From a virus, in IMG/VR virus record IMGVR_UViG_3300032342_000007, positions 1 to 56,047 of that record: DNA of 56,047 nucleotides. One strand, given 5' to 3'. Both the position numbers and the translations under genes were made by a program. The notes beneath the pieces are model-generated. The model searched no databases. It was not told the DNA's origin and saw only the letters and a program-made list of their open reading frames with translations. Positions within the stretch are counted from its first letter, which is position 1. Each line of letters starts with the position of its first letter. Of this stretch, positions 5,493 through 24,968 are shown one piece after another.

Positions 5493-6883
5493 GGAATCTC
5501 CGTCGCTTTCTGGGATTGCACCACGCGCTCGAAGTAGCTCGCATCTCCGTAGTGCTGCTTCACCGCCCCTCCCACGCGTGACTGACTGAAAATCAGCCTC
5601 GGGGTGAAGCCTCCGCGCTCGTCCGGCGCGACGTGGGAATCCATCAGCGCCATCGTGTTCACCTCAGGGATAGCCATCAGCGCCTTGAAGTTGCGCGGGA
5701 GAACTTCATGAAGATGCTTGGTTCGAGGCGGAGGAATGAACCTCATGTTCTTGTGCCCCCGAGCTTCGCTGCGGAGAAGAAGCTCATCCTCGTCCTCGAC
5801 GTACGCCATGACGAGATTGATCTTGTAGCCGCGCTTCCCACTCGGCAGCTTCTTGAGATTGGGAATGAGCGTCTCCAGCATCCACTTCAAGTTCGCGCCC
5901 GTACCGGAGAGCACAAAATTGCAGTGACGCTTCTTGGCCTCTTCGATCAACCGGTTGTTCATCTGCAACGCCTCGTCAACAACGGAGGTCGCACCACTTC
6001 GCGTCTTCAAACGCGCCGCTTCCTGAAACTCTGGCAAGCGAACGACAATCTCGTCCGGGTCCAGCGTCGCCGAGTTGTGGTACTGGTTCCCTTGATGGGT
6101 GGACTTCCCTGCGGCAGGAGGCCCCATGATGAAAGTGAAAGTGGGCTCTTCGTCATCCGGAACCGGGGTGACACCCTTGAACGCCTCGGCGCGCACGTCG
6201 TCCAGCACCGCCTCCTGCATCTTCAGCCGTTCCGGAGTCCAAGAAACGGTGGCAGGGTTGAAATACTTCTCCTTCGTGCTCTTGGGGATGCTCGGATGCG
6301 TATCCACCCAGCCGGACTCAGCCGGGGTTGCGCCTTGATGCCAGCGTCCGGTGAACTCGGAGCCCACCTTGCGCCACGAATGGTCCGCCTGCTTCTGGAA
6401 ATCTCCAGTCCTCCACCTGTGAATGGCTCCAACCTCAGCCTCAACCCCGCGCGTCTCCAGAAAAACGTGGTCCATGCGACGCCAAATCTCTTCGGGCGCA
6501 AGACGGATCTCAGCGGGAGCAACCTCTGCTTCAGATTCGAGATTCTTGAAGTAGGCCCGAAAAAACATCAGAACGTCCAAGTCCTCATCCCAATCCGCAT
6601 CGATCCCGTTCATCGAAAACAGCATCAGCTCCTTCACGTTCTTCAACGACAGCGGCTCGAAAACGCAAAGAGGTCGCCCAGCCTGTGAAGGCAAAAGAGC
6701 AAAGCCACGCGCGCCACGGTCCTCCCAAGCCCCCGCCTCGTAGCGCGTCTGATTGTCGAACGCGTTGCAGTCCCACTCCAACCCGTCCCGCCCAAGTCGC
6801 GGCTTGAACGCAACGTACTTGGTCGGCGGGCCTTTGAGGCGACGCTCCACAACACGATAGAGGTCAAAATCTTCTGGTCGCAT
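5489..6883 (-). CDS. Zeta-toxin-like P-loop kinase protein
   Basis: 464 residues. The C-terminal half (about 245-400) matches the zeta/PezT-type kinase fold: Walker A GPPAAGKST (254-262), a following acidic pair in TLDPDEIV (D275, D277) and a strand-plus-GT motif NFVLSGTG. Zeta toxins phosphorylate UDP-sugars of peptidoglycan synthesis; related phage domains may have other substrates. The N-terminal 240 residues are unrecognised and contain WHQG and SWTPERL segments. No antitoxin-like neighbour is evident; the 71-residue protein downstream is the only candidate. The ATG overlaps the stop of the 2540-residue gene, and the pairing suggests both act together, perhaps as virion or injected proteins. 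Substrate and role are not shown by the sequence. Confidence 0.7.
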   Translation of the reverse strand: MRPEDFDLYRVVERRLKGPPTKYVAFKPRLGRDGLEWDCNAFDNQTRYEAGAWEDRGARGFALLPSQAGRPLCVFEPLSLKNVKELMLFSMNGIDADWDEDLDVLMFFRAYFKNLESEAEVAPAEIRLAPEEIWRRMDHVFLETRGVEAEVGAIHRWRTGDFQKQADHSWRKVGSEFTGRWHQGATPAESGWVDTHPSIPKSTKEKYFNPATVSWTPERLKMQEAVLDDVRAEAFKGVTPVPDDEEPTFTFIMGPPAAGKSTHQGNQYHNSATLDPDEIVVRLPEFQEAARLKTRSGATSVVDEALQMNNRLIEEAKKRHCNFVLSGTGANLKWMLETLIPNLKKLPSGKRGYKINLVMAYVEDEDELLLRSEARGHKNMRFIPPPRTKHLHEVLPRNFKALMAIPEVNTMALMDSHVAPDERGGFTPRLIFSQSRVGGAVKQHYGDASYFERVVQSQKATEIP

Positions 6884-9800
6884 CAGAGCCCCATCGGTTT
6901 GACGTACTTGTCGTAAATCTCTTGCGCCGGACCCGACACGACGACAACGAAGTCCTCGATAGGAACGCCATTGACCGAAAGGAAGTTCTGTTTGCGAGCC
7001 TCCTTGATGAGTTCCACGCGGTCACCCTCGTCTTGACACACAATCCGAAGAAGACGAGACGCATGAACCCCATTGAAAAAGTCGGTCTCGTTGGAGCTGG
7101 TCGCGCCTGTATGAGCGTTTCGATACTTGATGATCTCAGGCGTGGTCTGACGATCCTTCCATTGCGCCGAACCACTTCCTTTGCCGAACGAACCGTACGC
7201 ATCTCCCGGAAAACTCATCACGTCAAGGCGATCCAGCTCGTCCGCAGCAAGAATGTACTTGTAGCGACTCGACGTATTGCCCGCGTTGACCGAGGCGAAC
7301 AGGCTGCTAGAGGCGCTGTTGGTCGTAATCAAGCGCCACATGCCGGTCTGCGCCCCACCAGACGCGAGATCTTCGCTCACCGAATTACCGGCAGCGCCGC
7401 CGTGCTGCGAAGAGGCCGTGCCAGACAAGAGCCGTTGATTGATGCCCGACGGCCCACTGTCACGCAGCGCCTGAATGATAAACTTCGGAGTCTTGGCGGA
7501 GGTCTCAAGAAACTTCAGAATCGGCTCGCCATCTGAGCCTTTTGGAAACCCTCGCCAACGGTCTGGTACCACAAAGCTCTTGAGGCCCGGAGTCACCTCG
7601 GTTTCGACCGCCGAAAAGTATTCTGATGGAATCTTGAGGGGCACCTTCTTCGGGTTGCCGTTCATGTCTGTAGCGGGCTTCGGCTCAGAGCTGGAGTTAC
7701 CGGCGTAGTTGTGGGCGAAGGCGTTCTTCACCCTCTCCCGAAGCCCGCCCACTGTGAAATCCTCGGGCTTCAATTCTCGCTCTACGGCCGGAGCGGCGGA
7801 AAACAAGATTTGGTGGAGCTTCTGAATCTCATGATCTTCAGGCGTCGGCTCGTGCAACACCATGTCCCCGAGTCCCGACGACGCCTTGTCGAGAAGCTCT
7901 TTCAAAACGTCAGTGAGCTTCTCATCGGAACCGAGGTCCAGCTCCGCCACCATCTGACCAACAAGCGCGAAGTAGTGCTCATCAGTCACCATTCGGAGCT
8001 TGTGTTTGCCGGAAGTCCACTCGCGCGCTCCCACCTCCAGCGACTCCCCAGCGGTCTTGACGATGGAGTCCGACTCAGCATTGTAGCTACCAATCCAAAA
8101 GCTGTGCTCCGTGTGTTGGCCGGTGTTCGAAAGGGCCTGCCACCCAACCGCCTTGCCGTTCTTGTCTCGCGCGTCCTTTTTGATTTTGAAAGAGACCATC
8201 AGCTTGGTCACGCCTGCTGTGTCCGTCACTCGCTTGATGTTGAGAGTGCCGGTTGAGCCCCAGAGCGCTGGCCCGTCTGTGGGAAACGCTCTGCCGATAA
8301 GACCGAGCTTGGCGGTCTTGGCGTTGTTGATGTCCTTGAAGGACTGCGCGACAGGAAGCGCGGGGGCGTGCGACGGGAAGTAGGACGGCGTCCCTGAGTG
8401 TGGGGCGATTTTGTCGCCAGCGACCACCTCCTGTTCGATTTCGTCAGGAGTGATGGTCTCCTCTGTGGTGATAAAGGCGGCATCGAGGTCCGCCTTGGAC
8501 ACAGGCAAGAAGAACTTGAGCGTACCGTTCTCGGACTTCTTCTCGATGGCGGGACCGAGGGCTTTCAGATTGAACTTGGCGAGGAACGCCTCGACGGCGG
8601 GGAGCCCACCTTCTTTGTACTTGAGGGCTCGCTTCGTCTCGTCCTCGGTCTGCACTCCAGCCGCGTCCTTCACTTTCCACGGACGAATCTTGACGGGCGT
8701 AGAGCCGTTTTCGGAAGACGCGGCGAACTGCTCAGCGGTCGTCTTGATGGTCTTGATGTAGGGCACCGGCTTCGGGGGCTTCGGAGGAAGCGCGCCCGCC
8801 TCAACCCAACCGGTACTGAACATGAACCGACCGTTGGTCCCCGTCTTAACTCGAAGAGCTTCCGTCAGTGTCTGCTCGACTTTGAACTTCGTCGTGTTCT
8901 TGCGATTGATGGCGTCCTGAACGAAGGCGACCTGCATCATCTTGTTGCCGGGGTGAGTTGCTTCAGCCACCGGCCGCACCATCGTGTCGAAGTCCAGCGG
9001 GGAGATTTTGAAGAGGTCGTCGAAAACCCCACCAAGGTTCCCGGCTCCCTGCTGCTCGTTCACCAGCTTTTCCCAAATGGGGTCTGTGTCGGGCCGAACA
9101 ATCGGATCTGTTCCGGAAGGAATGATCCAGTCCAGAACGCCCTTTCTGGCGAGAGTGGCGTCGGTCAACGGACTCGGCGCGTAATTGGTCGCGACTTGGA
9201 GCGCCTTGAGCGCGGTGGCCGCCGCCGCCGCAATCTCTTCCGGCTTCGCCGGGAGCACCACCGTCGGTTCGGGAAAAGAAAACTCCTCGATGGGGGACGA
9301 AACTTGAGGTGCGGGAACGCTCGCAGAAACCGGAGTAGGCTGGGCACCCCAACCGCCGAGCGCCTTGAGCTTCTTCGCGACGTTCTTCACCCGCTTCAGC
9401 GCGGTGTCGTAGTCGGCTCCGGACTCCCACGCGTGCTGCGCCGCCGCGTCTTTGATGTTGTCCTTGTACGCTGCGAGATTCTTGAGCGCCTTGTAGTAGA
9501 CGCTGTTGGTCTTGATTCCGAGCGAGGCCGCGACCTGCTTGATGTTTGTGAACGACGGCGGCGTAAAACCCTCAGGCTTCGGTACGGAGAATTGACCGGG
9601 TTGCGGAGCAAGGGTAACCGGCTTCGGAACTTGGCCAGCAGCGTAGGCCGAGGCAGGTACGAACCCGACGACACCACCGCTCACGACAAACCCAGCAGCG
9701 ACAGCTCGTTTGATGAAATCCTTGACGCGAGTCCCCACCTCCTCGGCCGACAGGAAATTCATGTGCTTCAGCGCCATGTCTTGGAGCTGCACGTCGAGGG

Positions 9801-12800
9801 GCTCGTCGGGCTTGTAGTGCTGCGGCGAGTTCATGAACCCGAGAAACGTGTGATCGTCTGTCGAGGCCGGTCCAAAAGCCGCCTTCTGCGAAGAAGACGA
9901 ATTGGCGTACTGCGCTTCGCCATCGTTGGCCACCGCTTCAAGGTCAAACCCGCCACCCACCGTCGGAGGCTTCTTCGCGGCCGGGTAGAGACCGGCCGGG
10001 TACAAACCGACAACTCCGCTCTTGATGACGATTTTCGCCACCAACGCCTTCTTGAGGAAATCGGCAACCAAAGAGTCCGACTCGGCGGGAGTGAGACCGA
10101 GGGCGTACCCAGCAGCCACCTTCAATTCGAGTTCGAGAGGCTCGTCCGGATCGTAGGTCTGGAGTACCCCAAAAAGTGCCCTGTCGGACGCGTGAATCGG
10201 ACCGAAAGCCGACTTTTGATCCGCCGACATCTTGTCCGCCCAGATACCGCCTTGGGCCACCAGATTCTTCAGGTCGAATTTCTGAGCTTGAGCTTGAGCA
10301 ACCGTGAGTGGAACTTTCGGTAGAGCCTGTGCGGTCGCGGCCGGAACCGCAGCAACAGCGCCCTCTGGCAACCATCCTCCCGAGAACGTGAACAAGCCCT
10401 TCTTCTTGGTGCGCCTCTCGTAGAGACCGGTGACGAACGTCTCAAAGTCCTTTCGGATGTTCTTCTTGCGTGAAAGAGCCTTGTCGTAAATCCCAGAGGC
10501 CACAACCGCCCCGCCTGCCGCCGCAGACACATAGGGCTCCAACGCCTTGAGATACTCAGCGTCGGAGATTTTCTCAACGGCCTCGATGGCACCCAACATC
10601 ACGGTCGGATCGAAGCTCTGCTTGTTATCAGCGAAGTCCCCCCAGAACTTGTTGTAGTAGGGCGGATTCGGTTCTCCGTACTGGGCGTTCGGATGGTAGT
10701 CCGTCGCGAGGACATCGCCCTCCGGCGTCGAGTGCGTCCACTTCTCGTTCGGCAGGAGGTACTTGAAGCCCTGTTCCTTGTCGATGCCGATGATGGAACC
10801 GTTCGGAAGGCGCAGCAGGTTGCCACCGTGGGTGTCGTGCTGCGAAAGCAACCAGTCGAGAACGTGCTCATCCGCGACATCCTTCTTCTCGGCGGCAGTC
10901 AACGACGCGGGAAGCACGCCAATCAGGCCCGGTAGTTTGTCCCCAAGCCACGGCTGAAGGGTCGCAGGCTTGTCCTTAAAGGTCACTCCTCCGACCGGAA
11001 CGGTTGAGGGCTTCACTGCGGCGGCGACGGTTGCGAAGAGCGCTTGAGACGCGACCTTCCACGGCTCGGGCTTTCCGCTCGACTTGTTGGTCGCCATCTT
11101 CAGCAGGAACTTGTTCCCCGCATCGTCCACGAAGAAATGCTTCTCGCTGGCACCGCCGATACCGACAGCCGGTCCTGCGTGCGTCAAGCTGCTCAGGGAG
11201 GGAAGCTTGGGAGGAACCAGCACCCCGGTGGCGATTACCGAACTCGGGGCGGAGAGCGCGGCGAACTTGAAGGGCTTGCCCTGCACCGTCGAGAAGAACT
11301 TCTCGAAGTCGGAGCGCAGGTTCTCCTTGCGCTTGAGGATCTTGAACGCGGTGTGAGCTTTCGTGACGGGGTTGTCTCCACCCTCCATCGCGTCAATGTA
11401 CGGCTGAACGAGCTTGCGATAGTCCGCCTCCGAAACAGCTTCGATAGCCTGAATGAAGGGCAACGCGGAGTTGAAGTCGAAATCCAGCTTCCCGTTCGCG
11501 CGCGCAGAGTAGAGCGCGTTGTAAACCGGAGGCGAGTTGTTCGGCTTGTAATCCAGCGACAGTTCGTCATCCCCGATGAACTTGAACGCCTGCTCTTTGT
11601 CGATGCCGACGATGTCGCCATTCGTTCGGACGATGAAGTTCCCGGCCTTCGAATCGTGATTGGACACGAGCCAGTCGAGAACTCGCTCACGTTGCAGTTG
11701 CTGGATCTGCTTCTGAGAGAGATTCGTGACGGGCAACTTCGAGAGGTCGGTCGCCACATCAGGAATCATCGACTGAACGGAGCCCCAGCTATCTCCCTCG
11801 CCTGTGGCAACCACCGGCACGTACGTAGAGGCGTCGCCGAGCAGCGCGGCGATGCTCGACGCAACCTGACCCGCGAAAGCCCGGACCTTGGAGGCATCCG
11901 TCTTGTAGAGGAACAGATTCCCAGCCGCGTCCTTGAGGAACTCCTTCGGCTTGTTCCCGCCAAGCTTGGACTTCGCGTTCCCGTGGCTGTCGGCAGCGCT
12001 CGTCAGTGCAGAAATCGGAGGAACGGCGGGAAGAGGACTGCCCGGTGTGGAGGGGGCCACGGGAACAGCAGGCGGCTCCTTCTTCGCGACCACGACCGGA
12101 GCAACCACGGCCGGAGGGAGGGTGACCGGAGGCGGACCGTCCACCTTGTCGAGGAAGTCGTCGAGGTCAAAGCCGTCCGCGTACAGCGCCTTCTTGATGA
12201 CGGTGGTCGCGAAAACTTCGGCCTTGGCAGGCGACCACCCGGCTGCCTTCAGGAAATCGATGACCTGCTTGGCCGGGGCCAGCTTGACGAGATTCGCCCC
12301 GAACCCGCTCACATGCGCCGGGGCGGGTGCCGACTGGAACGCCTTCCAAAGCCCCAGAACCTTGGCCTCGTCCGTGTCTGGTTCGTACCCGAGCTGCGCA
12401 GCCCAGTGCAGAACCTTGGCGTCGGTGGGAACGGCGTTGCCCGCCAGAGCCCCCTGCTTGCCCGCAGGAACCGCAATCGGGGCAGGAGTAGGGGGTACGA
12501 CAGGCTCAGGCGTCGAAACAGGCTTCAGCTCGTGGTGAGCGCCTTGGATGAACTCGGCCACGTCGAAGTCTACGGTCTGCAACGAGCCCACGAGGTGCTT
12601 CAGGAAGGCCAGTGCGTCGCTCGTTCCATAAGCGGACCCGGCTGCCAGCCCTGCAAGTTCAGCGGCGGCACCCTCAAGGGCCTTCGCGCTCCCCGGCCCC
12701 CAGAAGGCACCGGTACCGCCGAGCTTGAGATGCTTGCGCCAAACGTTGAGCGCTTTCGCCTCGTTCGAGTTGGGAAAGAAGCCGAGCGCAACGGCGAGGT

Positions 12801-14505
12801 CGCGCACAAATGTCGAGGTGGGCTCAGCGAAGGCTGAGAGGTCGGGCTTCGGTGGCGCGGGGCCGTCATCCGGAGTGTCGAGATCGGGGCCGGGACCGAG
12901 AGGCTCGGCAGGACCGGCCATGAAGTCGCCAACGTTCCAGTCGGGCAGCATGGCGAGTTTGTTTTGAACGAGGTCCGTCACGAACGCGAGGCGATCAGCC
13001 AACGTCTTGTTGAACTCCGCCGAGGGCACGGGACCGTCCAGCTCAGCAAGTTCTTTCGCCGTCCTTTCGAGAGCGTTGGTGGTCTTCTTGAGGTGGTTCC
13101 GATAGAGGTTGAGCACCTTGGCTTCGTTCGAGTTCGCGGCGAACCCGAGAGCTTTGGCGGCTGCGAGCACCTGCGGATTCGAGGGTGCCGCGAATGGCGA
13201 AAGGTCGGGAACGGTCGCAGGCAGCGCCGTGACCGAGAGCTGCTGCGCCGCTTGCGCCGCGCTCAGCAAGCTCGGGAACTTGCTCTTGGCCGAATCGACC
13301 ACGTAGGAGACGTGGGCTGCGAGCTTCTTCTTCTCTGCCGCAGAGAAGTCGAGACCGCTGATGAAAGCGATGTCTTGCACCGTCCGCGTAATCGCCTTCT
13401 CTGGAGTCCAGCCGCCGCCGCGACTCTTGTCCGACGTGCCGACGTAGAGTCCAATTACCTTGGCCTCGGTCGAGTCCAGCCCCCACCCCATTGCGGAGAT
13501 GACGGCTTGGGTCGCAGGTGCGGTAGGTGAGTCCACCGCTAGGATTGCGTGCTTTATCCAGTCCACCTTGCCGGGCGCGGGCGCAACCACGGGTTCCGGT
13601 ACAGGCGCAGGAGCAGGAACAGGCGCAGGCGTGGCGAGAGAATAACCGTGAGGAAGCGGCTTCGTTTTCTTCTTCTTCGGCGCTTCAGGAGCAGCCGCCG
13701 GAACAGTGGGGCTGACCGCGACCACGGGCGCGGACATCACAGGACCAGTGCCGCCGACGAACGAGAGGGTCATCCCGCTGTCGAAATCACCCTTAACAGT
13801 GACGAGCCCCTTCGCCTTGGCGGCGTTGATGAGCACTTCGACGTGGTCGTGAGCCACCGCGTTCTTCTTGTTGAACTTCACCCGATAAAGCTCGGCGACG
13901 GTGTCGGAGTTGATCTTCGGGTTCTTGTGAAACTGAGCCAGAATAAACGCCTGCGGAGACCCGGCAGAAAACCCGAGGGTCTGGAGCGCGAAATCAAGCG
14001 GGTTCGAAGTCTCGGCGGGCGACGGCGGGCGCGCGTTCGGGCTGGGGGCTTCGGTGGGAAGCTGCGCCGCAGCCTTGGCGGCGGCTTCGGCGGCGGTAGC
14101 CTTCTGGAACCAACCGTTGCCAAACTTTTTGAGAACCCCGGTGTACCAGTTCGCGTTCTTCAACAGCGCGGCACGCTTCTTCGGGTCATTGAAGCCCGCG
14201 TCCTTCAGATATGACAGCAGCTCATCGACATCGAGAGCCTTGCCGCCTGTGACACCGGGAGGAGGCGTGTGCGTGTGGGCGGGCTTTTTGTAGAAAGACT
14301 GCAACCCCGACGGCGTCTCTTGGGGCACGTAGATCCATTCACCGTTGGACTGCTTCTGCACCCGACGGTTGCCGTGCGAAGAAACCCAACCCGGCGGCAA
14401 CCCGGTCGCTTCCTCAAGCGGGGCGGCAACCGAAGAAGTCCCGAAAAACGCAGACAACGTGACGACGGCGTTTTCGGATCTCCAAAAGTCGTTGCCGATG
14501 CTCAC
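6883..14505 (-). CDS. Giant modular protein with two kinase-like domains (2540 aa)
   Basis: Pro/Ala-rich linkers separate many small domains. Residues 330-790 hold four related helical modules, each with a G(F/W/Y)-x-x-(D/N)(S/T)xEAKVL-like signature (near 344, 457, 579 and 710). Residues 836-1075 and 1105-1365 are two copies of a HipA/PI4-kinase-like fold: a strand lysine (K868, K1136), a catalytic loop HDSKAGN (H950-N956) or HDTHGGN (H1223-N1229), and a metal site GIDKEQ (D969, D1242). Residues 1755-1890 look like a third copy that keeps VLDW but has lost the catalytic motifs. Two further tandem modules occur at 1410-1505 and 1520-1618. The C-terminus (about 2240-2540) is a separate globular part. 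The GTG start has AGGAG upstream. Size and setting suggest a virion or injected effector protein; this is inference. Confidence 0.85.
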   Translation of the reverse strand: MSIGNDFWRSENAVVTLSAFFGTSSVAAPLEEATGLPPGWVSSHGNRRVQKQSNGEWIYVPQETPSGLQSFYKKPAHTHTPPPGVTGGKALDVDELLSYLKDAGFNDPKKRAALLKNANWYTGVLKKFGNGWFQKATAAEAAAKAAAQLPTEAPSPNARPPSPAETSNPLDFALQTLGFSAGSPQAFILAQFHKNPKINSDTVAELYRVKFNKKNAVAHDHVEVLINAAKAKGLVTVKGDFDSGMTLSFVGGTGPVMSAPVVAVSPTVPAAAPEAPKKKKTKPLPHGYSLATPAPVPAPAPVPEPVVAPAPGKVDWIKHAILAVDSPTAPATQAVISAMGWGLDSTEAKVIGLYVGTSDKSRGGGWTPEKAITRTVQDIAFISGLDFSAAEKKKLAAHVSYVVDSAKSKFPSLLSAAQAAQQLSVTALPATVPDLSPFAAPSNPQVLAAAKALGFAANSNEAKVLNLYRNHLKKTTNALERTAKELAELDGPVPSAEFNKTLADRLAFVTDLVQNKLAMLPDWNVGDFMAGPAEPLGPGPDLDTPDDGPAPPKPDLSAFAEPTSTFVRDLAVALGFFPNSNEAKALNVWRKHLKLGGTGAFWGPGSAKALEGAAAELAGLAAGSAYGTSDALAFLKHLVGSLQTVDFDVAEFIQGAHHELKPVSTPEPVVPPTPAPIAVPAGKQGALAGNAVPTDAKVLHWAAQLGYEPDTDEAKVLGLWKAFQSAPAPAHVSGFGANLVKLAPAKQVIDFLKAAGWSPAKAEVFATTVIKKALYADGFDLDDFLDKVDGPPPVTLPPAVVAPVVVAKKEPPAVPVAPSTPGSPLPAVPPISALTSAADSHGNAKSKLGGNKPKEFLKDAAGNLFLYKTDASKVRAFAGQVASSIAALLGDASTYVPVVATGEGDSWGSVQSMIPDVATDLSKLPVTNLSQKQIQQLQRERVLDWLVSNHDSKAGNFIVRTNGDIVGIDKEQAFKFIGDDELSLDYKPNNSPPVYNALYSARANGKLDFDFNSALPFIQAIEAVSEADYRKLVQPYIDAMEGGDNPVTKAHTAFKILKRKENLRSDFEKFFSTVQGKPFKFAALSAPSSVIATGVLVPPKLPSLSSLTHAGPAVGIGGASEKHFFVDDAGNKFLLKMATNKSSGKPEPWKVASQALFATVAAAVKPSTVPVGGVTFKDKPATLQPWLGDKLPGLIGVLPASLTAAEKKDVADEHVLDWLLSQHDTHGGNLLRLPNGSIIGIDKEQGFKYLLPNEKWTHSTPEGDVLATDYHPNAQYGEPNPPYYNKFWGDFADNKQSFDPTVMLGAIEAVEKISDAEYLKALEPYVSAAAGGAVVASGIYDKALSRKKNIRKDFETFVTGLYERRTKKKGLFTFSGGWLPEGAVAAVPAATAQALPKVPLTVAQAQAQKFDLKNLVAQGGIWADKMSADQKSAFGPIHASDRALFGVLQTYDPDEPLELELKVAAGYALGLTPAESDSLVADFLKKALVAKIVIKSGVVGLYPAGLYPAAKKPPTVGGGFDLEAVANDGEAQYANSSSSQKAAFGPASTDDHTFLGFMNSPQHYKPDEPLDVQLQDMALKHMNFLSAEEVGTRVKDFIKRAVAAGFVVSGGVVGFVPASAYAAGQVPKPVTLAPQPGQFSVPKPEGFTPPSFTNIKQVAASLGIKTNSVYYKALKNLAAYKDNIKDAAAQHAWESGADYDTALKRVKNVAKKLKALGGWGAQPTPVSASVPAPQVSSPIEEFSFPEPTVVLPAKPEEIAAAAATALKALQVATNYAPSPLTDATLARKGVLDWIIPSGTDPIVRPDTDPIWEKLVNEQQGAGNLGGVFDDLFKISPLDFDTMVRPVAEATHPGNKMMQVAFVQDAINRKNTTKFKVEQTLTEALRVKTGTNGRFMFSTGWVEAGALPPKPPKPVPYIKTIKTTAEQFAASSENGSTPVKIRPWKVKDAAGVQTEDETKRALKYKEGGLPAVEAFLAKFNLKALGPAIEKKSENGTLKFFLPVSKADLDAAFITTEETITPDEIEQEVVAGDKIAPHSGTPSYFPSHAPALPVAQSFKDINNAKTAKLGLIGRAFPTDGPALWGSTGTLNIKRVTDTAGVTKLMVSFKIKKDARDKNGKAVGWQALSNTGQHTEHSFWIGSYNAESDSIVKTAGESLEVGAREWTSGKHKLRMVTDEHYFALVGQMVAELDLGSDEKLTDVLKELLDKASSGLGDMVLHEPTPEDHEIQKLHQILFSAAPAVERELKPEDFTVGGLRERVKNAFAHNYAGNSSSEPKPATDMNGNPKKVPLKIPSEYFSAVETEVTPGLKSFVVPDRWRGFPKGSDGEPILKFLETSAKTPKFIIQALRDSGPSGINQRLLSGTASSQHGGAAGNSVSEDLASGGAQTGMWRLITTNSASSSLFASVNAGNTSSRYKYILAADELDRLDVMSFPGDAYGSFGKGSGSAQWKDRQTTPEIIKYRNAHTGATSSNETDFFNGVHASRLLRIVCQDEGDRVELIKEARKQNFLSVNGVPIEDFVVVVSGPAQEIYDKYVKPMGL

Positions 14506-14569: not shown

Positions 14570-15349
14570 CTACGCAACATCCGCCTTCTTGCTTTTCGGA
14601 GCAAGAGTCTCGACGGCCTTCAGCGCTGCCGCATCGAGAATGGGTGCCAAGAATTCGTTGATGTCCGCCCCGGACTCGCGACAGTAGTTGAGCACCTTGT
14701 CGAGCGCTTTTTTCATCGGTCGAGTCATCTGCACATAGACGTGCTCGTTTTTTCCGAACGTGAACACCATGTACGACTGTTGAACGGTGTCACCGTACTT
14801 CGCGAAGAGCGTCTGAATGATGGTGCCGAGGTCTTCAACGGTCTTGGCTTCTTTGGCCTTCTCGTCGAACTCGGCGTGCATCTCCTTCGGAAGCGACTGC
14901 TTCATGCCGCGCTTCACGTCACCAACGAGCTTCTGGAACTGCCGGGTGTCCACGTAGCCCATGAGCTGCTGGAGCGCGTCCTTGCCGTACTTGTCGGCCA
15001 TCTCTTGGTAGAGCTTGAGGAACTTCTCCGGGTTCATCTTGCCGCCGATGACATTCAGACGGACGGTCTCGAACTTCTGAAGGTCTTCGTCCTGCCAGCG
15101 CTTGCCGATGAGAACCGTGCAAGGCACCTCATCAACACCCGCCGCCTGACACGCCTTCCAACGATGCTCACCGCCGATGATGCGGTAGTTGCCGTCTTCG
15201 AGAGCGACCACTTGAATCGCGGCGGTGCAACCGTTCTCTTTGATCTCATCCACGAGGCGCGTGAACATCGCCTCGTCCATGTTCTGCGGGTTCCAAGGAT
15301 TGGCAACCAGCTTCTCAATGGGAATGTGCTTCAGCTCATGCTTGCTCAA
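14570..15349 (-). CDS. ParB/sulfiredoxin-like domain protein
   Basis: 259 residues. The first about 90 residues form a ParB N-terminal (ParB/Srx) domain: IPIEKLVANPWNPQ, then a strand-helix part and the GEHRWKACQAAG motif (G-x-H-R), which in this superfamily binds nucleotide or acts as a nuclease. No following ParB helix-turn-helix or parS-like partner is evident and no ParA is nearby, so partition is unlikely. Phage members are often nucleases or regulators. I use a TTG start with GGAGAA six bases upstream; an earlier in-frame ATG at 15442 would overlap the previous gene by 37 bases and lacks a ribosome-binding site. Confidence 0.7.
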   Translation of the reverse strand: MSKHELKHIPIEKLVANPWNPQNMDEAMFTRLVDEIKENGCTAAIQVVALEDGNYRIIGGEHRWKACQAAGVDEVPCTVLIGKRWQDEDLQKFETVRLNVIGGKMNPEKFLKLYQEMADKYGKDALQQLMGYVDTRQFQKLVGDVKRGMKQSLPKEMHAEFDEKAKEAKTVEDLGTIIQTLFAKYGDTVQQSYMVFTFGKNEHVYVQMTRPMKKALDKVLNYCRESGADINEFLAPILDAAALKAVETLAPKSKKADVA

Positions 15350-15405
15350 GATGGTTCTCCGAGGGTGTGCGGGAGAATCATAGCGCCCCCGAAGCAAGTA
15401 CGGTA

Positions 15406-15621
15406 TCAGTCGCCAAGGAGAACTTCGGCGAGATTTCCGCACTTCCCCGCGACGATGCGCAGCTCACCGCAGAGTTCATGCACCACCTCGTCGAGCTGGT
15501 GATCCTCTCCGGGCTTGTCGATGACCGGCAGTCCTTCGCCCATTTTCTCGATCCACTTGTCGAGAATCTTCTTGGCGCTTTCCAGTTCAGCAACGATGAG
15601 TTCGGGACCGACGGGGAGCAT
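15406..15621 (-). CDS. Hypothetical helical protein, 71 aa
   Basis: Acidic and mostly helical (AELESAKKILDKWIEKM, DEVVHELCGELRIV). Its ATG overlaps the upstream stop in a TGATG arrangement, indicating translational coupling. No domain recognised. Confidence 0.65.
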   Translation of the reverse strand: MLPVGPELIVAELESAKKILDKWIEKMGEGLPVIDKPGEDHQLDEVVHELCGELRIVAGKCGNLAEVLLGD

Positions 15622-16601: not shown

Positions 16602-16942
16602 GCGACCTCCCCGCTCGGTTCTTTCTCCTGCTTCAGCTCTTTCTCCCAGAAAACAACCTCGCGCGCGCGAACCTCGGTGAGGTCGCCGTGCGGTCCGTCG
16701 CGATTCATCAGCTCGCCTTCAACAAGCACGTAAACGCCCTTGGTGAGCCGAGTCCGACAAATACGAACCAGCCCATCCACGTAGACGTTGACCTTGATGT
16801 ACGCCGTCACCACCTGACCACCCGACGCATAGCGGTCCGAGGCGATGTGAAATCCGCAAACCTCCAGCCCGTTGCCAGTCTTCCCGAAGTCGATAGCCCC
16901 CGTGACGTTCCCCGAAACAATGACCTTGTTCAAACCCCTCAT
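16598..16942 (-). CDS. ssb: Single-stranded DNA-binding protein, OB-fold
   Basis: 114 residues. It begins MRGLNKVIVSGNVTG, the classic SSB first strand, continues with an FHIASDRY strand and ends the fold with VEGELMNRDG and VVFWEKE. The C-terminus is PSGEVA and lacks the acidic D-D-D-I-P-F tip that recruits partner proteins; that tip is instead present on the larger SSB-like protein at 25847-26635. The ATG overlaps the RuvC stop (ATGA), with GGAGAA upstream. A recombination rather than replication role is a reasonable guess given its RuvC and nuclease neighbours. Confidence 0.8.
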   Translation of the reverse strand: MRGLNKVIVSGNVTGAIDFGKTGNGLEVCGFHIASDRYASGGQVVTAYIKVNVYVDGLVRICRTRLTKGVYVLVEGELMNRDGPHGDLTEVRAREVVFWEKELKQEKEPSGEVA

Positions 16943-17517
16943 AGCGGTTCTCCGGTGACAACCCGACGCGCCATCCGCATCAGCTCGCTGTCGAGCGTCG
17001 CGACCACAGCTCCGAGCGCGTCGTAGGGATGCTCCAGCATCGACGGAAGAACATCTCGGCAAGACTCGTCCAACAGGGCCTTGCCGTAGCGCACTTTCAA
17101 CGCCTTCTGCACGGTGGTTTTGTCGGAGGTCTTGGAGCCGGTAACAGACTGCTTGAGCTGCTGCGGAGACGCCTGAATCACGGGGATGTTGAACTGTTCG
17201 GACAGCGCAGCAATGGCTCCCCAACACATCGCCATCTTGGCCGCGACCGACGAGCTGCGCGGGAAGCTCATCGTCTCCGCGCAGATGGCGCTGACGGGGC
17301 CGTGCGCACCGTCTGTCGCGAGGTCGCGAAGGAACAAGTAGATCTCGCGCGCGCGACGGACGTTGTCATCGGAGGCGAAGACCTTCTGCTTCTTGGACGA
17401 CTTCTCGGTGCGGAACACACCCATGTTGAGCAAGCGCTCTCCACCCTTAGGCGGGAGTTCCACCACCGCGTAGCCGATGCAGGCAAAACCGGGGTCCAAC
17501 CCAAGTACGACGCTCAT
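16939..17517 (-). CDS. ruvC: Holliday junction resolvase RuvC
   Basis: 192 residues, normal RuvC length. Catalytic acidic residues are D8 (GLDPG), E81 (ICAETMSFP) and the C-terminal H163-P-Y-D166-A (EHPYDALGA), as expected for the RNase H-like resolvase dimer. No RuvA or RuvB is nearby, which is usual for phages, where the enzyme trims branched DNA before packaging. Sits in a tightly overlapping leftward set: zinc-ribbon protein, RuvC, SSB. Confidence 0.93.
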   Translation of the reverse strand: MSVVLGLDPGFACIGYAVVELPPKGGERLLNMGVFRTEKSSKKQKVFASDDNVRRAREIYLFLRDLATDGAHGPVSAICAETMSFPRSSSVAAKMAMCWGAIAALSEQFNIPVIQASPQQLKQSVTGSKTSDKTTVQKALKVRYGKALLDESCRDVLPSMLEHPYDALGAVVATLDSELMRMARRVVTGEPL

Positions 17518-17897
17518 GCGCGCTTCCTCGTGATGCTCTCGAAGCGCTCGTGCAGAGTGATAGCCCCCAATACGTCATCAGCGTCCTGAACCCGAATGAA
17601 GCGGCCCTCGACGCGCTCCAGCGGCTTCCCGCGCTTGAGGCCGAGAACGTTCGTCACGCGCGCGACCGCCACCTTCGTCTCGGGAGAATCGAGCCACCCT
17701 GAATCGTACAGGAAGCACAGCGCGCAGATATTCTCCTGCCCGTAACGCGCGTGCGTGATGCTCCAGTGCGCGGTCGGCTGCTTACACACAGCGCAGTGGA
17801 GATTCGCGGTCGGACCCAACGGACGCAGAACGTGCGTGTTGAGAACCTTCGGCTTCGCGGCAACATCCGGAACGACGGGGGCTGTGGTGGTTTCCAT
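17514..17897 (-). CDS. Small zinc-ribbon protein, 127 aa
   Basis: Contains CAVC and CALC knuckles 22 residues apart, a typical zinc ribbon, in a protein with an N-terminal Thr/Pro-rich stretch. The ATG follows the stop of the Cas4-like nuclease by one base; the stop overlaps RuvC. Function unknown; a DNA-binding accessory to the recombination cluster is plausible. Confidence 0.7.
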   Translation of the reverse strand: METTTAPVVPDVAAKPKVLNTHVLRPLGPTANLHCAVCKQPTAHWSITHARYGQENICALCFLYDSGWLDSPETKVAVARVTNVLGLKRGKPLERVEGRFIRVQDADDVLGAITLHERFESITRKRA

Positions 17898-17898
17898 T

Positions 17899-18759
17899 TC
17901 AAGTCTCCGCGAAGCACTTCTTGACGACCGAGCACTTGTTCGCGCGCGTGCAGGAGTCAGTCGCGCAAACTCTCTCCGGAAGCAAGCCCGAGCGAGTTCC
18001 ATTCGGAATGCTCGTCAGCATGGCCTTGAGATTCACGATGGTCTCTTCGTCGTACTCGACGAAGTGCTCGGCGATGGCTTTGTCCACGCCGTGCTCGCCC
18101 TTGGCCCAGTAGAAGATGATCGACCACTTCAGGCCGCTCAGCCACATGTACGCTTGCGCCTGAATGACGTGCCCGTAGTGGGGGGCCTGCTTCACCTCCC
18201 ACGCGTTCCTGCCGCCGATGGACTTCGCTTCGAGGATGCCCATTCCCGGCAAGCCGGGGAGCACCAAGAATCCGTCGGGGTGTCCCGTCAGACGGAACTC
18301 GTCGTTGACGAAGCTCGCTTCGACGTATTGGAAGGCTTGGTCCCCTCGGCCCTTGCTGACGTTCCCGCACTTCGAGCAGGTCTCTGGGCGAAGAATGACC
18401 TTCTCGGACACGAGGAAGCCCTTCTCGACACCACCGTGCGCGAAGCCGCACCCGAGGCACTTCCACTGCCCGTACAGCACGCCCAGCTCAGGCAGCGCGT
18501 GATTCTGGAGGCCCCAGTGAAGAGAGGTGCCGTGCAGGAAGGTCAGCAGCGTGTCGCCGTTGAGAGTTTCCTTGCGCGTCACCTGATGCTTGGCGCAGAG
18601 CACCTCTTCGCGTGCGCACAGACCCGAAAGTGACGAAATCCGAACGTAGTCGTCGAGCTTCGGCGGATCTTGAATCGACGGTCGCTTCCACTCACGAGCG
18701 AAGAGCTGCTTCAGAGACCCCGAAGCGCGTGTCGCCGTTACCAGTTCTCCGAGCCCCAT
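17899..18759 (-). CDS. Cas4/RecB-type PD-(D/E)XK exonuclease with Fe-S cysteines
   Basis: 286 residues. The nuclease core shows GHPD (D162), E177-A-K179 (ILEAKS) and Q200-x3-Y204 (QAQAY), the RecB/Cas4 motifs. A likely 4Fe-4S site is formed by an N-terminal cysteine (C48 or C55) with C265/C270/C276/C282. An additional zinc ribbon, CLGC with CSKC (101-131), is inserted before the catalytic part. Such phage enzymes resect DNA ends in recombination. It heads the RuvC/SSB set and has AGAGG before its ATG. Confidence 0.8.
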   Translation of the reverse strand: MGLGELVTATRASGSLKQLFAREWKRPSIQDPPKLDDYVRISSLSGLCAREEVLCAKHQVTRKETLNGDTLLTFLHGTSLHWGLQNHALPELGVLYGQWKCLGCGFAHGGVEKGFLVSEKVILRPETCSKCGNVSKGRGDQAFQYVEASFVNDEFRLTGHPDGFLVLPGLPGMGILEAKSIGGRNAWEVKQAPHYGHVIQAQAYMWLSGLKWSIIFYWAKGEHGVDKAIAEHFVEYDEETIVNLKAMLTSIPNGTRSGLLPERVCATDSCTRANKCSVVKKCFAET

Positions 18760-19234: not shown

Positions 19235-19425
19235 ACCCGGTCCTCGGGCCGCGCGTTGGCGGCTCGGTGTCGGAGTAGGGAGTCGCCGCGAACGTGCCAC
19301 CAGACGCCCTCCAGAGCCTTCAGGTACAGCGGATCGCCCTCGTAGGCGCGGGTCCGCCAGTACAGCCACCGCACCGCGCTCAAGGCGAAGGCTCGCAGGC
19401 TTTTGACGACCGGTCTACTTTCCAT
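19231..19425 (-). CDS. Hypothetical protein, 64 aa
   Basis: Small, basic and Trp/Arg-rich, with ALSAVRWLYWRTRAYEGDPL and a WWHVRGD segment. ATG with GGGGGC upstream; it overlaps the end of the nuclease gene by 11 bases and the next gene by ATGA. No domain recognised. Confidence 0.55.
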   Translation of the reverse strand: MESRPVVKSLRAFALSAVRWLYWRTRAYEGDPLYLKALEGVWWHVRGDSLLRHRAANARPEDRV

Positions 19426-19942
19426 GACTTGCCCCCTTTTTCAGGCGCTCGAACACTGCCTTGGAGATGACCACCAAGTCGAGCGGTGTTTGCCCCGGAC
19501 GGAAGGGGGTCTCGAAGGTGAGGATGACGGCGGGCTCAGTTCCGGCCGCCGCCGCACCGTGGGCAACCTTCACCCACCACTCCTTTTTGAACGAGATGGA
19601 CGCGTTGTCCGTGCGCTTGTGCTCGTAGTGAAAGTCCTTCGACCCGATGTCGCCGTCGAGAGTGATGTTCTCGAAGCCCGGCTTGTGCAGCTCGCCCCGA
19701 AACGAGATGTCGGACACCTTGAGCGTCTTCGAGTACCGCGACCGGAGTTTACCTCCGGAGTTGGGGAGCCGCCGCCCGCCCAGCTCCTTCGCCAGCCGCA
19801 ACTCGTGCTTCTTCGACCGCGCGTAGCGGTCGTGGTTGTCGTCGAGGTACTTGAGCGTCCGGCCCTTCGGGGCCTCGTCGTTCTTTACGTCAAGGTGCTT
19901 GAGCCGCAACCCTTTCGGCTTCTCGTCGTCATCGTCGCTCAT
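19415..19942 (-). CDS. PD-(D/E)XK nuclease, Holliday-resolvase/VRR-like
   Basis: 175 residues. After an acidic/basic tail, E47 (KKHELRLAKELGG), GD98-I, E107-x-K109 (HYEHKR) and K119/K120 in FKKEWWVKV fit the restriction-endonuclease fold seen in small Holliday-junction resolvases and VRR-NUC-type phage nucleases. Strands VILTFE and LDLVVISK complete the core. Family placement is by motif order only. It would give the phage a second junction or structure-specific nuclease next to RuvC. ATGA overlap with the preceding gene. Confidence 0.6.
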   Translation of the reverse strand: MSDDDDEKPKGLRLKHLDVKNDEAPKGRTLKYLDDNHDRYARSKKHELRLAKELGGRRLPNSGGKLRSRYSKTLKVSDISFRGELHKPGFENITLDGDIGSKDFHYEHKRTDNASISFKKEWWVKVAHGAAAAGTEPAVILTFETPFRPGQTPLDLVVISKAVFERLKKGASHGK

Positions 19943-20537: not shown

Positions 20538-20701
20538 AGGTTCTCCAAGGTTGACTGCTCGAACGGATCTGACGAGCCACGAGTGTGCCCCGCCGGGCAC
20601 CGCCACACCCACTGCATCGGGAACGACAACAAGTGCTCCGGGTCCAGCTCCGCCTGCGCCGGAAGACCGCAAACGGCGCAAGGCGAAGCTTCGGGGGCTA
20701 C
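20534..20701 (-). CDS. Small zinc-ribbon frame lacking a normal start codon
   Basis: A frame of about 55 codons directly after RecA encodes CAVC and, later, CPAGH, a probable zinc ribbon, and its stop overlaps the next gene's ATG (ATGA) as real genes do here. No ATG, GTG or TTG occurs near its beginning. The codon that overlaps the RecA stop in the usual coupled position is GTA (gcGTAGcc), with GAGG just upstream. The nearest upstream in-frame start is a TTG at 20884, deep inside recA. It may use a non-standard start, be a decayed gene, or carry a sequence error. Confidence 0.4.
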   Translation of the reverse strand, partial: VAPEASPCAVCGLPAQAELDPEHLLSFPMQWVWRCPAGHTRGSSDPFEQSTLENL

Positions 20702-22212
20702 GCTACCTCGGTCGCCGGGGTCTCCACTGCCTCTTCCGGGACCGGTTGCAGCCCGAGGTCCTGCACCGGCTCGTTGATGAGCTTCAGGATGGTCTGCTTG
20801 ACCAGCCGGTAGAAGTCCGGGTCGAGCCTCATCCGCTTGTCGATGAGACCCTTCGAGTCGTAGCGGCCTCCGAGGCAGGTCCAATGCGAGCTTTCCTTGG
20901 TGATGATTCCGAGAGCCTGTGCTTCCGCCATCACGGCGTCTTCGTCAAGCACGTCACCCGTCTGCTTGGTGGTGCCGTCCACCATCGCCATCTTGAAGGA
21001 GTCGGTGCGCTTGGCCCCTCCCGCCTTGCTCTTCTCGATGTGGAAAGGGAACTCCACCTCGATGGGAATCGGGTGGTCCTCGTCGGTCTTGTCGAATTCC
21101 CAGACGCCGGGCTTCATCTTCATCTCGACCGAAGCCGCAAAACCGGGAGCCATGCCGCCCGGCTGGACCTCGGGGTTGCCGAACATCACACCGATTTTCA
21201 TGCGGATCTGGTTCGTCAGGAAGACTGTCGGACGACGCTCGCTGTGGAGCCCAGCCATGTTGAGTCCCGAGACGAACTTGCGAACGCCTCTGTTGACGAT
21301 CTTGGCGTTCCCTCCCATCGTCTCCTTCTCAGTGGACTCCTCGATTTCCTTCGCGGGCGTAAGGAACGCGATGGAGTCGAGCGCGATGACATCGCAGTCT
21401 CCGGAACGAACCAGCGCATCACCGATGTCGAGGGACTGCTCAGCGTACTCCGGCACCGACAGCAGGAGCTTGTCGAGGTCGATGCCGTGCCGCAGCGCCC
21501 ACTTCTTGTCGAACGTGCCTTCCACGTCGATGAAGGCGCAGACCGCCTCGCGGTACTTCCGACAGCCGCACGTCGGTTTGATTTCTTCACCGAGAATCGG
21601 CACTCGAATCGTCGCGTGCTCGTCCTCAGGGTCGGGCTGCGTCTCGACGCGAAGCAGCTCCTTCCACTTGTCCCCGTGCGCGTACCAGCGCGCGACCGGC
21701 GCGGAGACCCACTCCTTCTTGGTCTTCTTTTCCGTCAGCGCGACCGCGTCCTCCGCCTTGACCTTCTTGCCCCGCTTCTTCGAGGCGATGACGGTGACCT
21801 CCCCCGTCGTCTCGTCGATGACTTCCGCGTCCTCGACTTCCACCTCGACGAGCTTGGCCCAATGCACGTACTCCCAACAGTTGGAGCACTGGTGCTGGGC
21901 TTCAGCGATGGTCTTGAACAGGAGCGTGGTCTTGCAGGACGACTTCATCCCGAAGATGACGTTGACGCGGCCCTGCGGCCAGCCGCCGCAGAGCGCCTTG
22001 TCCACCTGAAACACCCCGGAAGGGATGCGGAAGGCTTTGGCCACGCGCGCATCGGAGGCGCTGGTGAGGATGAGGTCGCCGTGCTTCTTCTTCAGCTTCT
22101 GAAAAAGCTCGGACGCCAACAGGTGCTGAATTCGCACCGGGTTGCGCTTCGCCGGAGTTTTCTTCTCGTCCTTCGGCTTCTCGTCCTTCTCGTCCTTGCT
22201 TTTTCGGGCCAT
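20698..22212 (-). CDS. recA/uvsX-like: RecA-type recombinase with zinc-ribbon insert and Cys P-loop
   Basis: 504 residues; strand-exchange ATPase. The P-loop is GMKSSCKTT (88-96), where the glycine before the catalytic lysine is C93. The catalytic glutamate lies in FIDVEG (E231), Walker B in VIALDS (275-280), and the L2/DNA-binding region NQIRMKIGVMFGNPE is almost identical to RecA. About 110 residues are inserted after the P-loop helix (109-224); the insert is Lys/Glu-rich and flanked by CSNC (109-112) and CGC (215-217), suggesting a zinc ribbon. The ATG with GAGGGA upstream is preferred to an earlier in-frame start that would overlap the upstream gene. Length exceeds ordinary RecA (about 350) because of the insert and extended ends. 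Confidence 0.9.
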   Translation of the reverse strand: MARKSKDEKDEKPKDEKKTPAKRNPVRIQHLLASELFQKLKKKHGDLILTSASDARVAKAFRIPSGVFQVDKALCGGWPQGRVNVIFGMKSSCKTTLLFKTIAEAQHQCSNCWEYVHWAKLVEVEVEDAEVIDETTGEVTVIASKKRGKKVKAEDAVALTEKKTKKEWVSAPVARWYAHGDKWKELLRVETQPDPEDEHATIRVPILGEEIKPTCGCRKYREAVCAFIDVEGTFDKKWALRHGIDLDKLLLSVPEYAEQSLDIGDALVRSGDCDVIALDSIAFLTPAKEIEESTEKETMGGNAKIVNRGVRKFVSGLNMAGLHSERRPTVFLTNQIRMKIGVMFGNPEVQPGGMAPGFAASVEMKMKPGVWEFDKTDEDHPIPIEVEFPFHIEKSKAGGAKRTDSFKMAMVDGTTKQTGDVLDEDAVMAEAQALGIITKESSHWTCLGGRYDSKGLIDKRMRLDPDFYRLVKQTILKLINEPVQDLGLQPVPEEAVETPATEVA

Positions 22213-22219
22213 TGTTCCC

Positions 22220-22645
22220 TCAGTACGGCGTGTTGGCCTTGCTCGCGGTCGCGGCTGCGCGAACGTCAGCGGACTCGGCTTTGACCTTCTGCTCAACGAA
22301 GTCCTTCGCGTACTGGAAGCAATCGTCGATCTCTTCCTTGTAGCAAGGGACCGTCAAGCCGATGTGGACACGCACCGACTCGAAGTTGCCGATGTTGATG
22401 GTGAGCCCCACCTCGGCATTCACTGTGGCGGGCTGCGTGACGTAGCGGTGGATCGCCAACGTCGCGTCCTCCTTCGTTTCCTGCGGTCCGGTCGGAATCC
22501 CGTGAGACAGATGCTGCCGGGTCACCAGCACGGTCGTGGGTACTTCCTTCGAGCTTTTCTCAGCAAGGAGCCGCTGCTCCCAGACCGACTCAGCCTTCGC
22601 GAGAATCATCAACACCTGCGCCAGCGCTTCTTCTGTCGTTGCCAT
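22220..22645 (-). CDS. Conserved-looking phage protein beside recA, 141 aa
   Basis: Helical N-terminus, then a beta part with LTINIGNFESVRVHIGLTVP and CYKEEIDDCF, and a helical C-terminus. The NIGNFESVRV type of strand pattern is familiar from small phage proteins of unknown role, but I cannot name the family. GAGGAA lies upstream of the ATG; recA starts eight bases after its stop, so the two are probably co-expressed. Confidence 0.65.
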   Translation of the reverse strand: MATTEEALAQVLMILAKAESVWEQRLLAEKSSKEVPTTVLVTRQHLSHGIPTGPQETKEDATLAIHRYVTQPATVNAEVGLTINIGNFESVRVHIGLTVPCYKEEIDDCFQYAKDFVEQKVKAESADVRAAATASKANTPY

Positions 22646-23612: not shown

Positions 23613-24968
23613 TCATGCCACCCACCCCATCTTGGCGTAGAAGCGGTCGCGGTGACCGCCCATCTTCACGCACAGGTTCACCTTCTCATCGCGGAAGTCC
23701 ACGATGACTGGGTCCTTCTTGCCCTCAAACGGACGGAGTATCCGCCCAGACGCCTGCTCGACATCTCCCATCGGAACGGTGAAAAATGCGGTGTCGAGCG
23801 CGGGGATGTCGAGACCCTCGGAAGCGAACTGGGTCGTGGCGAAGATGACCTGCGCCTTGGCGGCCTCGTCAAGCGCGTCCTCGCCCATGCCACCGACGTA
23901 ATAGCCAACGGTCGGAGCGGGGCCAGCCTCGTCTTTCCACTGCACGCGAAGCTCGGCCTCAAGGTCGGAGAGGTGCTTCAGGCGCTCTGAGAGCACCAAA
24001 AGCTTGCGCCCGGCAACAATCGCCAGCACGAGCTGCTCGACCACGACCTTGTTTCGCGCCTTGTTCATGCACATGAACTTCAACAACAGATTCTTCGACA
24101 CCAAATTGGGGTTGAGAGAGGCGGTCTGTACGAGGTTGAAGTTGGTCCACACCTTGCGGACCTTGGGCTTCATCCGCTGCTCGGTGGAAGCGTAGAGGAT
24201 GGGACCGATGTGGAAGTTGAAGACGTTGTCAGCGCCGTCCTTGCGCCGGGGCGTGGCAGAAACCCCCAAGCGCCAACGCGCCTTGAACATCGGCGGAACC
24301 GCGCTCCACGTCTCAGCTCCGATGCGATGAACTTCGTCCGTGATGACCAACCCCGGCCACTCCTTGAAGAGGGGGCCGTAGTCTCGTCCTGCGATGGAAT
24401 GCACCATCGCGATGGCGATGTGCTTGCCCTGAAAGCTGCACTCGTCTTGTTGAATGAGACCGACTTTGGCGTCGGGAAGAAACTGGGCGATGCGTTCCTT
24501 CCACTGGTTGAGCAGGAACTCTTTGTGAACCACGACCAGCGTCGGAACGCCCAACTCGGCGATGAGACCGCACGACCACGTCGTCTTGCCCCACCCCGTC
24601 ACAGCGCGCACGACCCCGCCCAGCGACCCTGTGCGAAATTGCGCAGCAACCGTCTTCAGGGCGATCTGTTGGTCCGGTCGGAGGACACCGTTGAACTTCA
24701 GCGGTCCGGGCCACATGTCGGCACGGCCGTCCGACAGGTCCATCTCGATCTCGTGATGCGCTCGCTTGTTCGAGAGGAAATACTGGCGAGGGATGCCGAT
24801 GAGACCGGGTTCCTTGTCGTTGAACAGGTAGACAGGGCCGGGCGGGTCACCGGGGTGGTCACCCACCTTCTTTGGGTAGATGGTCAGCTTCGCCTTGAGC
24901 CCGGCGAGCTGCATCTCCGTCAGGTCAGCGCGCGGTAGCCACGCCCAACCGGCGACACGAACTTTCAC
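23613..24968 (-). CDS. Superfamily 2 DNA helicase (DEVH)
   Basis: 451 residues. Motif I is AVTGWGKTT (122-130), motif II ITDEVH (D211-H214), motif III SATPRR (237-242), motif V ATTQFASEGLDIP, and motif VI QASGRILRP. The arrangement resembles the RAD25/UvsW group of phage helicases that remodel recombination and origin structures. The N-terminal 90 residues are a separate small domain. The start overlaps the following zinc protein stop by ATGA. All catalytic motifs look intact. Confidence 0.92.
   Translation of the reverse strand: MKVRVAGWAWLPRADLTEMQLAGLKAKLTIYPKKVGDHPGDPPGPVYLFNDKEPGLIGIPRQYFLSNKRAHHEIEMDLSDGRADMWPGPLKFNGVLRPDQQIALKTVAAQFRTGSLGGVVRAVTGWGKTTWSCGLIAELGVPTLVVVHKEFLLNQWKERIAQFLPDAKVGLIQQDECSFQGKHIAIAMVHSIAGRDYGPLFKEWPGLVITDEVHRIGAETWSAVPPMFKARWRLGVSATPRRKDGADNVFNFHIGPILYASTEQRMKPKVRKVWTNFNLVQTASLNPNLVSKNLLLKFMCMNKARNKVVVEQLVLAIVAGRKLLVLSERLKHLSDLEAELRVQWKDEAGPAPTVGYYVGGMGEDALDEAAKAQVIFATTQFASEGLDIPALDTAFFTVPMGDVEQASGRILRPFEGKKDPVIVDFRDEKVNLCVKMGGHRDRFYAKMGWVA

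Follow-up and report, generated by a model that had tools for sequence, protein, structure and literature searches.

The closest described systems to the recombinase reported here are bacterial RecA (PF00154; E. coli structures 3cmw and 1u98), UvsX of phage T4 (phrog_97; PDB 3io5) and the RecAs of cultured Rhizobium, Rhodobacter, Vibrio and Stenotrophomonas phages. The fold of RecA places the P-loop and the L1 and L2 loops after the C-terminal ends of parallel strands, and the connection from the P-loop helix to the next strand lies at the opposite edge. RadA/Sms is another RecA-family ATPase, which carries an N-terminal C4 zinc motif, a Lon-like C-terminal domain and the KNRFG motif. The P-loop of T4 UvsX (GPSKSFKSN) has a phenylalanine at the position of the glycine before the lysine, and the enzyme is an active ATPase, which converts ATP to ADP and AMP (PMC3016280).

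The window, that is, the whole stretch of 56,047 nucleotides analysed here, comes from the 56-kb IMG/VR viral record IMGVR_UViG_3300032342_000007. It encodes a RecA/UvsX-type protein in an ORF that starts with ATG at 22212 and stops with TAG at 20698-20700 on the minus strand. The gene and its main elements are the following:

20698..22212, minus strand: RecA/UvsX-type recombinase with a Cys4 insert, 504 aa (Pfam, PHROG and model fold match)
21925..21951, minus strand: P-loop GMKSSCKTT, residues 88-96, with the Cys93 codon TGC at 21936-21934 (same in the relative L001)
21547..21894, minus strand: insert, residues 107-222 (about 115 residues), from the P-loop helix to the strand with the catalytic Glu (alignments; dN/dS 0.10)
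21877..21888, minus strand: first cysteine pair, C109-x2-C112 (CSNC); of 27 diverse family members, all keep C109 and 26 keep C112
21562..21570, minus strand: second cysteine pair, C215-x-C217 (CGC); each in 26/27 diverse family members
21520..21522, minus strand: catalytic glutamate E231 (RecA E96 equivalent; FIDVEG), invariant in 56 aligned RecAs

By sequence and fold, the 504-aa protein is a RecA/UvsX recombinase that lies outside the bacterial RecA equivalog. It matched Pfam RecA (PF00154) with an E-value of 4e-48 (164.6 bits, the cut-off being 27) and the UvsX-like phrog_97 with 1.9e-45, and its model matched RecA filament structures with a Z of 32.0 (310 residues, 3.5 A to 3cmw), while the model of a short-insert relative, L019, matched RecA filament structures at Z 34. 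The score for TIGR02012, the bacterial RecA equivalog, was 168.2 bits, far under the cut-off of 325.3. Common to the window protein and bacterial RecA are the core fold, the catalytic Glu, the Walker B Asp, the equivalents of Q194 and K248/K250, and L2; bacterial RecA differs in having no Cys4 insert and a constant P-loop glycine (80 loci, the best among the matches listed). T4 UvsX is likewise a phage recombinase in a replication/recombination module and without a P-loop glycine before the lysine, but it has no Cys4 insert, and the sequence of 3io5 matched the window protein weakly (E 0.12). The RecAs of the cultured phages named above, at about 27-35% identity, share recurrent non-Gly P-loops and a similar operon, in which a resolvase and a Cas4-like gene adjoin recA, but they also lack the insert. 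An identity as RadA/Sms was rejected: the C4 zinc motif of that protein is N-terminal, whereas the window protein has its Cys4 set within the ATPase core, between the P-loop and the catalytic Glu, contains no KNRFG motif and gave no match to TIGR00416 (sms).

Alignment of 27 diverse members of the insert-bearing family (<70% identity to each other) showed that Walker A G88 and K94, E231, Walker B D279, Q335 (RecA Q194) and K394/K396 (RecA K248/K250) are invariant. Since all the catalytic residues other than the P-loop position are conserved in this way, ATPase activity is expected, and the mode of action should be like that of other RecA/UvsX recombinases.

The P-loop helix ends near Q106, and the insert starts directly after it. 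Between the P-loop motif and the Glu there are 135 residues, compared with 22-25 in insert-free RecAs, which gives a net extra length of ~110 residues. Profile searches of viral contigs recovered some 40 RecAs of environmental viruses in which this site likewise carries CxxC...CxC (or CxxC...CC), and in this Cys4 family the distance from the P-loop end to the Glu ranges from 37 to 138 residues. Despite this spread in loop length, all four cysteines are kept in 25 of the 27 diverse members. L040 lacks the second pair, and in L034 the pattern is shifted; the remaining cysteines of the window protein are less conserved. The shortest Cys4 forms are CFSCFKSLEECECRKK (L029) and CANCWQFDCKCKN (L110). 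Judged from these alignments, the insert is a family trait, of which the window protein carries an enlarged version. A loop of 39-40 residues without cysteine pairs occupies the insert site in L045, L047, L051, L069, L073 and L086. L045, with a 40-residue loop, and L118, with all four cysteines, are sisters, which suggests a loss of the metal site in L045.

A sequence-only reading of this DNA had described a GMKSSCKTT P-loop with a TGC codon on the minus strand, a near-canonical L2, and about 110 residues with CSNC and CGC ahead of the catalytic glutamate; these descriptions agree with the ORF reading (Cys93), with the L2 found here, NQIRMKIGVMFGNPEVQPGG, and with the length comparison (135 vs 22-25). 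It had also called the insert zinc-ribbon-like: the Cys4 module is borne out by near-invariant cysteines in a large viral RecA family, while the zinc itself is inferred.

The contig IMGVR_UViG_3300032164_000015 (L001/L018), the sole close relative at the first IMG/VR pass, shares 94% amino acid and 92% nucleotide identity with the window recA. L001 has the same TGC codon in the P-loop and the same insert, save for a 3-residue indel in its charged middle; a sequencing error at the TGC codon is therefore unlikely. Between the two genes dN/dS was 0.10 for the insert and 0.09-0.13 for the core, indicating purifying selection on the insert, and the parts of the insert adjoining the cysteine pairs, residues 107-140 and 165-222, showed 16 synonymous changes and no amino acid change. 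The dN/dS of ~0.1, together with the shared codon and insert, argues for a functional gene and against an assembly error.

The P-loop cysteine, unlike the insert, is not a family trait. It breaks the Walker A consensus GxxxxGK[ST], with Cys replacing the Gly before the Lys. In the 27 diverse members this position is Gly in 17, Cys in 5, Ser in 4 and Ala in 1, and in 126 viral loci, some of them redundant, it is Gly (100), Cys (10), Ser (8), Asn (6), Leu (1) or Ala (1); in bacteria it was Gly in 80/80 loci, the best 80 among the matches listed. The second-closest relative, L098 (57% identity), has a similarly enlarged insert and the normal glycine (GMKSAGKTY). Cultured phages provide GPESSCKTN (Rhizobium phage RHph_Y1_11), GPEDSAKTS (Rhodobacter phage RcZahn) and GFESSNKTN (Vibrio phage PJ32), and other relatives among cultured phages have a normal P-loop glycine. 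Since T4 UvsX, with its Phe, and other phage proteins also deviate from the canonical Walker A, this motif, though required of bacterial RecA, is no defining feature of phage recombinases. In a tree that covered 56 viral RecAs and left out the P-loop column and the insert, the minimum was 12 changes for the P-loop residue and 6 for the Cys state. Because of these recurrent changes and the Gly of L098, Cys appears to be one of several tolerated states. It is also found without the insert, in RHph_Y1_11, L080 and L122, and most insert-bearing RecAs have Gly or Ser, so that the two features are not visibly coupled; a paired test on the tree, with 2-3 independent pairs, too few for significance, found no association. 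The Gly-to-Cys change is thus probably no special switch, but one of the substitutions repeatedly tolerated in phage recombinases. The altered ATP use or redox control that the sequence-only reading had proposed finds no support in this cysteine, given the Gly of L098 and of 17/27 members and the recurrence of Ser, Ala, Cys, Asn and Leu; a normal glycine in relatives is what that reading had itself named as evidence against its proposal. A search of the accessible literature found no paper on substitutions of RecA Gly71.

The recA region is devoted to replication and recombination, with a Pol I-type polymerase, SSB, primase, DnaB-like helicase and helicase loader. Around recA, the order SF2 helicase, MerR-like gene, 141-aa protein, RecA, resolvase, Cas4-like exonuclease, RuvC is common to most of the close insert-bearing relatives. 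The genes of the window are given below with their occurrence in 39 insert-bearing and 28 insert-free loci, the latter picked for carrying at least one of these operon genes, so that their rates are not an independent estimate:

23613..24968, minus strand: SF2 helicase (Pfam ResIII 9.5e-24; phrog_16 helicase); 37/39 insert-bearing, 28/28 insert-free loci
22220..22645, minus strand: 141-aa gene directly upstream of recA (phrog_25619, unknown function); 36/39 insert-bearing, 25/28 insert-free loci
19415..19942, minus strand: Holliday junction resolvase-like gene, downstream (phrog_2002 1e-14); 37/39 insert-bearing, 26/28 insert-free loci
17899..18759, minus strand: Cas4/RecE-like exonuclease (phrog_2506 1e-22); 33/39 insert-bearing, 25/28 insert-free loci
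17514-18002, minus strand: 162-aa Cys-rich protein with a CxxC...CxxC motif (HCAVCKQ...ICALC) in its sequence
16939..17517, minus strand: RuvC-like resolvase (Pfam RuvC 9e-10)

Beside the bacterial-type RecAs of other viruses, the SF2, 141-aa, resolvase and Cas4-like genes were each found in 1/35 loci. These operon genes are about equally frequent around insert-bearing and insert-free RecAs; the insert is a feature of the enzyme and not of a special operon. No partner gene clearly tracking the insert was found in the 39 insert-bearing and 28 insert-free loci. The MerR-like gene (35/39 vs 12/28) and the 162-aa Cys-rich protein, seen only beside insert-bearing RecAs (14/39 vs 0/28), differ in frequency, which in both cases may reflect kinship and flank length. 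The 141-aa protein has a motif that is roughly TINxGNFESxRVxVxLTVPCYxEEIDxxYxxAKxFVExKV, and is a good candidate to serve as a recombination mediator in the manner of UvsY. At 69 loci it likewise lies directly upstream of a phage-type RecA, whether insert-bearing or insert-free.

In the AlphaFold2 model of the window protein the core is confident, the cysteine-bearing ends of the insert are moderate and its middle is poor (pLDDT about 48-60); in L019, in which the stretch has 48 residues, the cysteine region reaches a pLDDT of about 89-97. Fold searches of PDB and BFVD returned mainly RecA-type folds, which filled the lists, and nothing for the insert itself. Zinc is the usual ligand of four-cysteine sets of this type. 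The conserved cysteines and the confident local prediction support a small Cys4 knuckle, probably a zinc module.

The window gene probably encodes the phage's own strand-exchange ATPase, which would act in the recombination and repair of phage DNA. Its Cys4 module (CxxC...CxC), placed where the P-loop helix leads on to the next core strand, most likely holds one zinc ion. RecA topology would put this module on the side of the central sheet that faces away from L1, L2 and the ATP site, at its N-terminal edge, and it is for this reason expected to project on the filament exterior, away from ATP and the DNA axis. The simplest role for an exterior module would be that of a docking or stabilising arm. 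The loop between the cysteine pairs seems to have grown to about 100 residues in the window phage and its nearest kin, with much of it predicted to be flexible, and the P-loop Gly-to-Cys change would be a tolerated one at a position that drifts in phage recombinases. As a whole, this account of a working RecA/UvsX ATPase with an exterior zinc-binding Cys4 arm for docking or stabilisation, and with a tolerated P-loop cysteine, is fairly likely on the sequence comparisons and models. It is possible, and we suggest it tentatively, that these proteins form a widespread undescribed group of phage RecAs, in which exterior zinc arms recruit a phage partner (such as the mediator-like 141-aa protein, the helicase or the resolvase) and the arm has turned into an accessory domain in the lineage of the window.

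Other explanations give the P-loop cysteine a larger part. It could be a specific redox or metal switch that acts together with the Cys4 insert on ATP use, as the location of Cys93 in the ATP-binding loop, its retention in the 94% relative and the rank of Cys as the commonest replacement of Gly in the family (5/27) might suggest. However, L098 combines a similarly long insert with Gly, most insert-bearing RecAs have Gly or Ser, the Cys of RHph_Y1_11, L080 and L122 occurs without an insert, and the paired tree test, of low power with its few pairs, gave no association, all of which makes such a switch highly unlikely. The broken Walker A consensus could alternatively mark a damaged P-loop, in a degenerate or non-hydrolysing RecA serving as a structural filament or as a regulator of the host RecA. 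This is very unlikely, as all the other catalytic residues are invariant, dN/dS is about 0.1, and T4 UvsX departs at the same position yet hydrolyses ATP (PMC3016280).

The insert itself could be a purely structural clip, with the helix-strand connection stapled by a Cys4 knot and a long middle that is only a neutral spacer and has no partner. Constant cysteines around an inter-pair loop of hugely variable length and sequence would fit a clip, as would the low confidence of the insert middle in the window protein, and the sisters L118 (with the cysteines) and L045 (a 40-residue loop with none) suggest that the knot can be lost. But residues 107-140 and 165-222, without an amino acid change from L001 against 16 synonymous ones, are under more constraint than a neutral spacer would be, and we regard the clip as rather doubtful. 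Against the docking or stabilising arm stand the equal frequency of the operon genes beside insert-free RecAs, with no clear partner, the pLDDT of about 48-60 in the insert middle, and the deviating cysteine patterns of L040 and L034. An intein, or its remnant, was rejected as the source of the insert and has a negligible probability. Inteins do occur in the family, but at three sites other than that of the insert and in proteins that each also carry the Cys4 insert:

1301-3334 in L025: intein in the P-loop (GPKS^SSKTT)
908-3301 in L024: intein after the catalytic Glu (NNEG^TWDQ)
2408-4660 in L110: intein in L2 (VMFG^SPETTPGG)

In addition, the cysteine pairs of the insert are conserved family-wide, and no intein or Hint domain was found in the window protein, for which Pfam gives RecA alone at E-values up to 1.

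An insert-specific search of 50,697 phage records gave only a 32-residue end match, and the top matches of four full-length family queries against phage records were too short to contain the insert, as judged by length. In bacterial genomes, the best 80 among the matches listed were ordinary RecAs with no CxxC at the site. Among the matches examined, the insert was thus absent from isolated phages and from bacterial genomes. A zinc or Cys4 insert in phage RecA was described in no paper found in a search that covered little of the subscription literature, and this silence is a weak sign of novelty. A single clade for all 34 insert-bearing rows was rejected (p 2.9e-5, on a tree with long branches and an unknown root), which is compatible with either gain or loss of the insert.

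RecA is much studied, yet this environmental viral group has a probable zinc module within the ATPase core. If the arm docks partners, it could replace or complement separate mediator proteins as a built-in device, and could also be a handle in the engineering of recombinases, UvsX-type enzymes being those that drive isothermal amplification. Phage recombinases have repeatedly lost the "invariant" glycine of the P-loop, and this may be regarded as a natural mutational series on the role of the residue.

Elsewhere in the 56-kb window, in which no tRNA genes were found, the following were located:

6883-14505, minus strand: ORF of 2540 aa, with no PHROG match at E 0.01
14570-15442, minus strand: ParB-like nuclease gene (phrog_26387, 8e-63)
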